From NCBI GenBank assembly GCA_947302355.1, contig CAMYUU010000002.1:1-64000 (forward strand): DNA of 64,000 bases, read 5' to 3'. This document shows, one piece after another, positions 19,324 to 56,012 of the stretch. Under the pieces are notes generated by a model, which did not search any database, had not been told where the DNA came from, and saw only the letters and a list, made by a program, of their open reading frames with translations. The translations under genes were made by a program, and so were the position numbers. This stretch comes from an uncultured Candidatus Saccharibacteria bacterium (lineage in GTDB: Bacteria; Patescibacteriota; Saccharimonadia; Saccharimonadales; Saccharimonadaceae). How positions within the stretch are numbered: position 1 is the first letter of the stretch; the number at the start of each line of letters is the position of its first letter.

Positions 19324-19422
19324 AAAAAATGGCAAATCCAAAGCTTGCTTTGGATTTTTCTTATGTTAAAATGGTATTAAAGAAGGTCAAATTAACTGGT
19401 GGGCAGAGGAGGTGCTCAAACT

Positions 19423-21147
19423 ATGAAAAATAAAAAGTGTAAATATATATTTGTAACTGGTGGCGTGCTGTCTGGGGTAGGTAAGGGAATCACGGCAGCT
19501 AGCATGGGAGCGATTCTGAAGGCAAAGGGTTATAAAGTAACCATGCAAAAATGCGACCCGTATCTAAATGTAGATGCGGGTCTTTTAAATCCGGTGGAGC
19601 ATGGTGAGTGCTATGTGACGCATGATGGGGTTGAAACGGATCTTGATCTTGGGCACTATGAAAGGTTTTTGGATTTTGAAACTAATAAATATTCAATCAC
19701 GTTGTCAGGTTCAATTTATAAGGAGTTGATTGAAAGAGAGCGCGCTGGAGGATTTCATGGCAAGACTGTGCAGCTAGTGCCGCATTTTACGAATTTGGTT
19801 TGCGAAAAAATTGAAAAAGCTTCGGCGGAGAGTGATATTCATATAGTAGAAATCGGTGGTACGGTGGGGGACTATGAGGGGTTACCGTTTATTGAGGCGA
19901 TTAGATTGTTTGCGAACAAAGTGGGTCGGCGAAATTGTCTGTATGTTTCGGTGGTATATGTACCATTCATTCATACGTCAAACGAATTGAAAACTAAGCC
20001 TGCGCAGAACGCGTTGAAGGATTTGCGTGGTTTTGGAATAATACCAGATATTGTATGCGTAAGGACAGAAGAGCCGTGTCCTAGGGCGATTTGCGAAAAA
20101 ATAGCAGCGTTTTCGGGGATTGAATCGGAAGCAGTGCTTAATTTGCCGGATATTAAATCGGTATATGATGTACCATTCAACGTGTTGAAGTCCGGAGTAC
20201 TAGAAATATTAAATGATTTTGTGGGTGATGAAGTGGAGCCGGACATGTCGCGCTGGAAAGAATTTTCTAGGAGGAGGGGACGTGAATACGCGAAAACTGT
20301 ACGAATCGGGTTGGTAGCGAAATATGTAGGAAATGACGATACGTATATGTGCGTGACAGAAGCATTAAAAGCTGCGGCAGCGTGGAATAATGTCAATCTC
20401 GACCTCAAATGGATCAATGCAGAAGAGCTAGGTCAGGCGTTAGCGAATGCCCCTTCGGGGCACGTTCCAGGCCACTCTGGCCAAGTCTTTATGTCCTCAC
20501 AGGAGTATTCGCCAACGCTTGACCTACTTCGGTCATGTGATGGCATTGTGGTGCCGGGAGGGTTTGGTAAGAGGGGGACGGAGGGGAAGATAATGGCGGC
20601 GGAGTATGCACTAGAAAACGATGTCCCGTACCTTGGTTTGTGTTTGGGGCTACAGGTGGCTTGTATTGCAGCGGCGCGCAAAGGCGGCGTAAAAGATGCC
20701 AATTCAGAAGAGTTTGGTGCTAGCGAAAAAAAGAAAAATAATGTTATTTATATTATGGAGGACCAAAAAGGTAAAGAATCTACTGGTGGCACAATGAGGT
20801 TGGGCAACTATACGGCGCGCTTAGTGCCAAAATCAAAAACCGAGAAGATTTATAAAAAATATAATTATGGGGAAGAAAAAGATGGTTATGAGGTAATAGA
20901 AAGACATCGTCATCGTTATGAAGTTAATCAGAAATTCTTGCCGGAAATAGAGAAGGCGGGAGTATTGGCTTCTGGCTTTTCGCCAGACGGCAAGTTGGTG
21001 GAATTTGTGGAAGCGCCGAAGTGTAAGTTCTTTGTAGCGACTCAGGCGCATCCGGAGTTTAAATCTCGCCCGCTTAACGTGCATCCGTTATTTATGGAAT
21101 TCATGAAGACTGCAAAACAATCTTTGCCGAAAGATGAATCGAGATAA
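19423..21147 (+). CDS. pyrG: CTP synthase with an in-frame insertion element
   Basis: KYIFVTGGVLSGVGKGITAASMGAILKAKGYKV; VPGGFGKRGTEGKI; GLCLGLQVACIA. ORF track extends to 19399; ATG at 19423 preferred. Confidence 0.95.
   Translation: MKNKKCKYIFVTGGVLSGVGKGITAASMGAILKAKGYKVTMQKCDPYLNVDAGLLNPVEHGECYVTHDGVETDLDLGHYERFLDFETNKYSITLSGSIYKELIERERAGGFHGKTVQLVPHFTNLVCEKIEKASAESDIHIVEIGGTVGDYEGLPFIEAIRLFANKVGRRNCLYVSVVYVPFIHTSNELKTKPAQNALKDLRGFGIIPDIVCVRTEEPCPRAICEKIAAFSGIESEAVLNLPDIKSVYDVPFNVLKSGVLEILNDFVGDEVEPDMSRWKEFSRRRGREYAKTVRIGLVAKYVGNDDTYMCVTEALKAAAAWNNVNLDLKWINAEELGQALANAPSGHVPGHSGQVFMSSQEYSPTLDLLRSCDGIVVPGGFGKRGTEGKIMAAEYALENDVPYLGLCLGLQVACIAAARKGGVKDANSEEFGASEKKKNNVIYIMEDQKGKESTGGTMRLGNYTARLVPKSKTEKIYKKYNYGEEKDGYEVIERHRHRYEVNQKFLPEIEKAGVLASGFSPDGKLVEFVEAPKCKFFVATQAHPEFKSRPLNVHPLFMEFMKTAKQSLPKDESR
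20429..20526 (+). repeat. Palindromic insertion element copy 1 (in-frame in pyrG)
   Basis: Arms TAGGTCAGGCGTTAGCGAAT / ATTCGCCAACGCTTGACCTA (inverted, 18/20) flanking core ...GGGGCACGTTCCAGGCCACTCTGGCCAAGTCTTTATGTCC... Confidence 0.75.
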
Positions 21148-51887: not shown

Positions 51888-53008
51888 TGGATCTCCATAG
51901 GTTCTTGTTCGAGCCAATAACCAAATTTGTCGTAGACTTTGCCAACTATTTCACTACGAGCGGCTTTTAGATCATTATAACCTTTGGCGGATTCATTGAT
52001 GAGAACTAGTGGGGCTTTGTCGCTAACGCGCATCCCATGTAAGAGCGCGCCTTTAAGACCAGCTTGTTCGATTAGCCAACCGGAATTGATTTTGTTGCCA
52101 TCTTTGCCGTGATAAACTGGGTAACCTTTGGATTCGGCTAGCTTGGCATCGGCATCGTTTAGGTAGATATTTTTAAAGAATGATCCGGAACTAGCTTGGC
52201 TTAAAGGGTCTGGCAATTTGCTGTCACGGATATCGCTTACGATTTGACGGATGCTCTGAGGACTGTAATCGGTAATATTGTTGGCTGATATGTATTGCTC
52301 GATAGAATTATAAAATGGGCGAGACATTTCGCCAGATCTAAGATGGAGGGTGAGAGAGATAACGAAATAGCGATTTTTGTCGGTAGTATTTAGAATGCTT
52401 TTGCGATAGGAAAAATGAAGATCGGATTTTGAGAGGGTTTTATAAGTATGGTCAGTGGTGTCGTAAACTTCGATTTCGACTAATGTATCTGCGATTTCTT
52501 GGCCGTAGGCTCCGATGTTTTGGACTGGAGCTGCGCCAGCTAGGCCAGGTATTTTGCTCAAAGCTTCAATCCCAGTGAGGTTTCTTTTGCAGGCGTAGTC
52601 GACGACATCGTCCCAGTATTCGCCACCCATCACTTTAATATAAATCGTGGAACGACTAGGCACCTCTTTTTCGGACACACTTGAGGCCGTTCGGCCAAGC
52701 TTATGGTCCTCAAAAGAGGTACCTGAGTCGCTCTGTGACTCATATTTAGATTTAAGGATGTCTGTCGGTGTCTGGGTAATCTCGATGCCTTTCATGCGGT
52801 TAATGATGATGACGCCGTTAAATCCTTCATCGTGACCGATGGTGTTGGCGCCGTAGCCAAGTACGAAAGTAGGCAAATGGGCTTGTTCGGCAAAGCTATA
52901 AGCATCAGCAACTTCGTCGTGGTTTTCAACTTCAATTACGTAGCGTGCTGGACCGCCAAGTCGCATGGTGGTGAGACTGGAAATTAAGATATTTTCATTA
53001 ATCCTCAT
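51884..53008 (-). CDS. murB: UDP-N-acetylmuramate dehydrogenase with an in-frame insertion element
   Basis: NILISSLTTMRLGGPARYVIEV, LGYGANTIGHDEGFNGVIIINRMKG, GIEALSKIPGLAGAAPVQNIGAYGQEI. Confidence 0.95.
   Translation of the reverse strand: MRINENILISSLTTMRLGGPARYVIEVENHDEVADAYSFAEQAHLPTFVLGYGANTIGHDEGFNGVIIINRMKGIEITQTPTDILKSKYESQSDSGTSFEDHKLGRTASSVSEKEVPSRSTIYIKVMGGEYWDDVVDYACKRNLTGIEALSKIPGLAGAAPVQNIGAYGQEIADTLVEIEVYDTTDHTYKTLSKSDLHFSYRKSILNTTDKNRYFVISLTLHLRSGEMSRPFYNSIEQYISANNITDYSPQSIRQIVSDIRDSKLPDPLSQASSGSFFKNIYLNDADAKLAESKGYPVYHGKDGNKINSGWLIEQAGLKGALLHGMRVSDKAPLVLINESAKGYNDLKAARSEIVGKVYDKFGYWLEQEPMEIQ
52650..52733. repeat. Palindromic insertion element copy 3 (in-frame in murB)
   Basis: Arms GAACGACTAGGCACCTCTTTT / AAAAGAGGTACCTGAGTCGCTC inverted; core TCGGACACACTTGAGGCCGTTCGGCCAAGCTTATGGTCC. 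Confidence 0.75.
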
Positions 53009-53089
53009 GAGTTGATTATAGCATGAGAAAAGAGTTTTTAAAATGAAAGGAGAGGGGGTTGAAAGTGGTTTCTATGCTATAATTATATT

Positions 53090-55484: not shown

Positions 55485-55589
55485 ATGTAATAAGAAAATA
55501 TTTTAAACGTGCCCTTCGGACACGCTCCAAGGCCGCTCTGGCCAGTCTTTATGTCCCGCAGAGCAGATTAAAATATATTCTTATTACAT
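55485..55589. repeat. Palindromic insertion element copy 2 (intergenic, overlapping tsaE stop)
   Basis: Arms ATGTAATAAGAAAATATTTTAA / TTAAAATATATTCTTATTACAT inverted (1 mismatch); core CGGACACGCTCCAAGGCCGCTCTGGCCAGTCTTTATGTCC. Confidence 0.8.
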
Positions 55590-56012
55590 AGATAGATTTG
55601 TTTCTATCTCGCGGGTGCCATCGTCATTATAAGAAATTGATATCTTGAAGTGATTTTCAGGAAGAAGATTAGCGACGGATTCGCCCCACTCGATTACGAT
55701 GATATTTTTTGGGTTTTTAAGATTTTCTTCTAAATCTTCGATCATGAGACCTGGTTCAGGGAGTCGGTAAAAGTCGTAGTGTGTGAAAGTTCCGCCATTT
55801 GGTAAAGCATATGATTTAGCAATGGTGAAACTGGGGCTAGTGATGGGTTTTTCAATTTGCAAGCCGTTCGCTAAACCACGCGTGAAAGTGGTTTTGCCGA
55901 CGCCGACATCACCAATCAATTCGATTACCGTAGCGGAATCTTTGGATAATTGGCATTTTTTTGCAAATTCTTTGCCGAAGTCTAGCATTTCTTGTTCGGA
56001 ATTTATTTTCAT
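55584..56012 (-). CDS. tsaE: tRNA threonylcarbamoyladenosine biosynthesis ATPase TsaE
   Basis: ELIGDVGVGKTTFTRGLANGLQIEKPITSPSFTIAKSY, HYDFYRL. Confidence 0.93.
   Translation of the reverse strand: MKINSEQEMLDFGKEFAKKCQLSKDSATVIELIGDVGVGKTTFTRGLANGLQIEKPITSPSFTIAKSYALPNGGTFTHYDFYRLPEPGLMIEDLEENLKNPKNIIVIEWGESVANLLPENHFKISISYNDDGTREIETNLSM

Follow-up and report, generated by a model that had tools for sequence, protein, structure and literature searches.

The insert in the CTP synthase gene pyrG is a member of an undescribed family of mobile hairpins of ~100 bases, which is confined to Nanosyncoccus, a genus of very small, parasitic bacteria. Copies of the element share a conserved centre, while the paired arms enclosing it have a fixed length and a sequence specific to each locus. 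The elements are mobile and are tolerated in frame within protein genes, and in a few cases one arm is native to the host gene. We consider it probable that they are non-autonomous selfish DNA elements, specific to Nanosyncoccus, and that ~19 nt of the target are copied by fold-back synthesis as they insert.

In the window analyzed here, a stretch of 64,000 nucleotides, pyrG occupies positions 19423-21147 of the forward strand, with an ATG at 19423, and the insert spans 20429-20526. A sequence check reproduced the sequence and coordinates given in a preliminary description, together with the open pyrG frame. The left arm (20429-20448, TAGGTCAGGCGTTAGCGAAT) and right arm (20507-20526, ATTCGCCAACGCTTGACCTA), both on the forward strand, are 20 bp each and pair at 18 of 20 positions. 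They enclose a GC-rich core of ~58-60 nt (20449-20506, forward strand), assigned to the c1 family by its recurrence in the genome and by the family HMM. The frame remains open across the insert (ORF 19399-21147, peptide ...WINAEELGQALANAPSGHVPGHSGQVFMSSQEYSPTLDLLRSCDGIVVPGGFG). Comparison with congener PyrG proteins showed a short linker at this position in most of them. The SPTLDL peptide encoded by the right arm resembles the native xLxLLxxxDG segment of these relatives. A separate sister-type insert, in reverse orientation, is present at the same PyrG linker in genome G013 (L097), and the PyrG linkers of two further congeners contain other extra sequence.

The core recurs elsewhere in the window. 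A local BLAST search matched the pyrG core to positions 55507-55566 (E 5e-7), the core of a non-coding c1 copy on the forward strand (55485-55590) with AT-rich arms (TGTAATAAGAAAATATTTTAA / TTAAAATATATTCTTATTACA). A further recurrence that had been reported near 52.7 kb proved to be more diverged, belonging to a sister subfamily, c2 (52658-52724, forward strand; core ~52662-52718; arms AGGCACCTCTTTT / AAAAGAGGTACCT; E 5.5e-4 with the family HMM). This copy is also in frame, within a minus-strand gene resembling murB (open frame 52001-53071). Across the genome as a whole, BLAST gave 11 matches to the core, and the HMM found ~19 copies, ~12 close and ~7 sister-type. Chance is excluded, since 0 matches are expected in shuffles for a 34-base segment of the core (20463-20496), and the genome contains 26 long inverted repeats versus 1 in shuffled sequence. 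Five inverted repeats lie in long ORFs, and all carry cores (four of the c1 family, one of another family), so palindrome formation in genes appears to be tied to the elements. No core-free palindromes were found in the long ORFs of this genome.

To place the family, 396 genomes from 153 genera of the class were searched, the sample consisting of species representatives, mostly MAG-based. The searchable relatives are one genus, Nanosyncoccus, represented by 176 species genomes, 52 of which gave strong core matches; the core was found in none of the 152 other genera. Exact core matches in named genomes all belong to Ca. Saccharibacteria, including Ca. Nanosyncoccus alces, and the window is accordingly assigned to a Nanosyncoccus genome. 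From dozens of Nanosyncoccus species, 105 full-length close copies were collected; for genomes other than the own one the copy numbers are minimum values, as the best few matches were scored per genome. The copies occupy unrelated sites in dozens of congeners, and core identity reaches 100% between species whose genes are 20-30% different. The element was not found in the viral contigs searched, at E ≤ 1 no Rfam model matched any part of the element in the 7 loci searched, and our literature search found nothing on such elements in Saccharibacteria or Nanosyncoccus. Neither of the two outcomes that would have refuted the preliminary description was observed: most congeners lack the pyrG insert, and its core has other genomic copies.

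ORFs were defined by open frames rather than annotation, and the genes were named from reading of the sequences. The majority of the copies (62 of 105) are located in open frames of ≥150 aa, including TsaD, GatA, LepA, IleRS, LeuRS, UvrA, PriA, Der, KsgA, MnmA, TopA and PyrG. Both orientations are common, and 58 of the 62 coding copies use one frame per orientation, either +0, giving a ACPSDTLRAALAKSSCSAEH-like peptide, or one minus frame, giving a CSAEHKDLARAARSVSEGH-like peptide. A self-splicing intron is disfavored by this open and strongly preferred frame. Presence of the insert at a given gene site differs between species. A -10-like hexamer was found within ~45 nt outside an arm in 22 of the 43 non-coding copies versus 7 of the 62 coding copies. 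With a looser TATAAT definition the counts were 27/43 and 19/62, and the distances peaked at 23-25 nt from the arm start. The non-coding copies with a -10-like box apparently occupy the -35 position or lie above it. In several non-coding copies (L004, L042, L051, L075, L082, L210, L254), only a few bases separate the end of the element from an extended -10 box (TGnTATAAT), and the inner arm end is TT-rich, as if the element had been inserted at -35.

The core consensus of the 105 close copies (GCGTGYCCTTCGGRCACGCTCCRGGCCGCTCTGGCCAAGTCTTTATGTYCCGCAGRACAC) folds into a long hairpin, in which an asymmetric internal loop is conserved and a GGCC/GGCC stem forms the apex. Core position 14 covaries with position 6, in a local 5' hairpin, and also with position 49, in the long hairpin, indicating that two mutually exclusive foldings are both conserved. 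Such three-way covariation, together with the strong pairing and the conserved internal loop, would be expected of a functional RNA or DNA structure in host genes, with arm pairing kept by selection. We consider this very unlikely, given that presence at gene sites varies between species and that orientation is free. In about half of the non-coding copies, a -10-like box follows directly downstream, which places the copy outside that promoter's transcript, and the coding copies are translated through, so an RNA function is not favored. The preliminary description had suggested a new mobile or RNA-structured family, and it is the new palindromic mobile family that our results support.

Arm pairing was quantified across the 105 copies. 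On average 16.6 of 18 positions paired, compared with a null of 7.9 when arms were swapped between copies, and at least 14 of 18 positions paired in 100 copies. In a gapless profile, the paired fraction was >0.88 at positions 2-18 from the core and 0.77 at position 19, and fell to background by position 22, showing that the arms are sharply 18-20 bp. The arm sequences, on the other hand, are independent of the core. For 80 copy pairs with core identity ≥0.98, from which copies with similar outer flanks were left out, arm identity was 0.43 versus a null of 0.34. Near-identical cores thus have essentially unrelated arms, which were not copied along with the core, as the earlier claim of a conserved core with locus-specific arms had anticipated. 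Capture of the arms from elsewhere in the genome was rejected, as no further arm copy exists in 720 kb of the own genome, and so was copying from a nearby third copy, as none occurs within 1.4 kb.

These data bear on whether the element is an ordinary MITE or Rickettsia-type palindromic element, in which the whole ~100-nt hairpin is copied and arm differences reflect decay and compensatory change. The size, hairpin form, in-frame insertions and sharp outer boundary fit this explanation, and paired arm substitutions do occur in orthologous copies; in L070/L009, 6 of 18 pairs are changed on both sides around a 60-nt core that is 93% identical. Arms in common at different sites (L014/L031; a few copies only) and a TsaD site with two additional arms, described below, are also as this explanation predicts. 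It is nevertheless unlikely, because unrelated arms surround cores that are 98-100% identical. Between orthologues the arms change only a few times faster than the cores, far too slowly to randomize the arms with the core unchanged. The lack of conserved terminal repeats among the copies likewise upholds the earlier distinction from MITEs and Rickettsia elements.

Characterization of the sister subfamily and of the other palindromic families was partial. A subfamily with longer arms of 35-57 bp (L003, match 1501-1543; L023, L035, L066, L067, L079) differs from the main family, with its locus-specific arms, in that the arms of its copies have in common a motif, CTTAAGCATGCCTAGCA, and a one-sided bulge of 7 nt. 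The leuS copies L039/L045 (genomes G000 and G011) have a sister-type LeuRS insert in common with near-identical arms and flanks, despite ~74% identity between the two genomes at the one other locus compared. Several other families of longer palindromic inserts occur in the same protein loops, the TsaD and GatA linkers (L152-L161, L275-L288, L296, L300). They encode peptides like SRPSSRGSGAHSAPVVADGLES, and their arms likewise look locus-specific. In GatA L276, the stem of such a longer insert reaches into the conserved RVG codons.

We then asked which arm is native. No close pairs with and without the insert were found among the species representatives, the nearest congener being ~74% identical at the one 2.3-kb locus tested, and assignment relied on recognizable native protein sequence. 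At TsaD site 1, just before the conserved FPLLAL, FPLLA is encoded in L008, L156 and L166 by the downstream arm, of which the upstream arm is an inverted copy. These upstream arms match the species' own synonymous bases exactly over 13, 11 and 11 nt, respectively, compared with ~5 nt on average for the FPLLA motifs of other species. In LepA L217, it is the upstream arm that encodes the native-like E-GPA. In GatA, where the native linker is tightly confined to 20-24 residues, the inserts lengthen it by 78-102 nt; L034 and L192 gained 78-81 nt, about the core plus one arm, and L224 and L245 are compatible with two new arms. At TsaD site 2, each of the two arms seems to be extra sequence, and the only sign of a target-site duplication consisted of GG...GG-like borders. 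The native linkers differ in length, and the net gain is anywhere from ~60 to ~105 nt. By these sequence comparisons, one native arm with an inverted copy is demonstrated at some sites, short of a general proof for all. The idea that the arms always mirror flanking host sequence fits TsaD site 1 and LepA L217, but both arms look new at TsaD site 2. Its wording is too simple, since arm length is fixed at 18-20 bp and nativeness can be demonstrated only where native sequence is recognizable.

In the close-family LepA inserts (L217, L055), the net gain of ~60 nt equals the length of the core alone. The core might accordingly insert by itself, one flank later being overwritten with the inverted other flank by ordinary template switching (quasipalindrome correction). 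Template switching can both generate and correct hairpin arms (PMC8794818, PMC8604942), and its fold-back geometry spares the loop, here the conserved core. We regard this sequence of events as rather unlikely. Arms of 18-20 bp are too uniform for a stochastic tract, nearly all full-length copies collected have them, and in the long ORFs of the own genome no core-free palindromes were found.

The LepA linker also offers the one observation in favor of insertion into pre-existing host palindromes: in genome G029 (L364), the insertion linker contains a coreless palindrome of 19 bp with a loop of 9 nt. This palindrome is possibly a remnant after core loss, a reading that fits it equally well. Native congener linkers in PyrG, GatA and LepA are generally without palindromes, as are the long ORFs of the own genome outside the elements, and we consider prior palindromes an extremely improbable origin.

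The conserved core, the locus-specific arms of fixed length and the native arm in the diagnosable cases are best accounted for if a core hairpin inserts and fold-back synthesis is coupled to its insertion. We propose that the propagated part is the 60-nt core only, an internal-loop hairpin, and that the perfect 18-20 bp stem would be made at each new site as an inverted copy of ~19 nt of adjacent target. The likely route would be fold-back (snap-back) DNA synthesis, in which the 3' end bearing the core would fold back at the core hairpin, be extended on its own strand over about two helical turns, and then be rejoined. The core would be preserved as the loop, and the stem would be built from the target. 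The sequence added per event could range from the core alone up to the core plus both arms. Insertions would survive in permissive places only, namely immediately upstream of promoter -10 boxes or, if frame and codons permit, in surface loops of proteins. The arms would later stay paired, probably via template-switch correction, while their sequence drifts.

Template switching of fold-back geometry is established in bacteria and eukaryotes (PMC8794818, PMC7202029). Ordinary template switching would not obviously yield arms cut so sharply at 19 nt, and this constancy of length suggests the participation of an enzyme. A RAYT transposase was rejected as a candidate because Y1_Tnp gave 0 matches in the own genome and in 35 of the 36 congeners scanned. 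Reverse transcriptases are nearly genus-specific, being common in Nanosyncoccus and nearly absent from 24 other genera scanned, and RVT_1 is present in about two thirds of the 36 congeners. A link to reverse transcription of the retron, DGR or group II type was also rejected, since those inspected look like DGRs and no RVT_1 was found in the own genome, which has ~19 copies. The reverse transcriptase genes at L058, L381 and L383 resemble those of diversity-generating retroelements and lie near Asn-rich variable ORFs; at L058 a core copy is directly downstream of the gene. We tentatively entertain a stronger version of the proposal, one that may well prove wrong, in which the element represents a new mode of transposition. 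Only the core hairpin would be transmitted, and ~19-bp terminal inverted repeats would be rebuilt from the target flank with an enzymatic ruler, by an enzyme new to all element families.

The family provides a second independent lineage, a reduced, epibiotic candidate phylum, with palindromic selfish DNA in frame in essential genes, and it inverts the usual anatomy, the center being conserved and the ends made to measure. If flanks are indeed copied at insertion, the element would join the literature on hairpin birth by template switching with that on the mobility of small elements, and would supply a defined core sequence for testing this coupling. For annotation, many Nanosyncoccus proteins contain 20-36 extra residues of selfish origin in surface loops.

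Several known systems resemble the Nanosyncoccus element in part. Bacterial MITEs (ERIC, Correia/NEMIS, RUP; PMC2229807) share its size, hairpin form and non-autonomous nature, but have conserved terminal repeats and target-site duplications, neither of which is seen here as a family feature. REP/REPIN sequences mobilized by RAYT (Y1) transposases (PMC3733652) are also small imperfect palindromes in many copies; GTAG-tagged conserved hairpin ends and a RAYT are expected there, whereas Y1_Tnp is absent here and from nearly all congeners. The closest likeness in genomic habit is to the Rickettsia palindromic elements (PMC2229807, PMC10969869), with similar elements in Wolbachia. These are multi-copy selfish hairpins of ~100-150 bp, often in frame in conserved protein genes, without a known transposase. 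The Nanosyncoccus element corresponds to their small in-frame palindromes (105-150 bp), being ~100 nt long with 62/105 copies in ORFs, 58 of them in one frame per orientation. The terminal inverted repeats of the Rickettsia elements, however, belong to the family consensus, whereas here only the center is conserved; the host is of another phylum, and a sequence relation is not established. Because conserved terminal repeats are absent, we do not file the Nanosyncoccus element as a member of that group. The coding palindromes of Nematomorpha mitochondria (PMC6649704) are perfect inverted repeats in protein genes with both arms translated, apparently maintained by conversion, but they are mitochondrial, have far longer arms and contain no conserved mobile core. 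Template-switch hairpins and quasipalindrome correction (PMC8794818, PMC7202029, PMC8604942) share the fold-back inverted copy of a flank and the correction of arms. Their hallmark of a native arm with an inverted copy is seen at TsaD L008/L156/L166 and LepA L217; TsaD site 2 and some GatA sites give no clear assignment or point the other way. What sets the Nanosyncoccus element apart from them is its mobile conserved core and its fixed arm length of ~19 bp.
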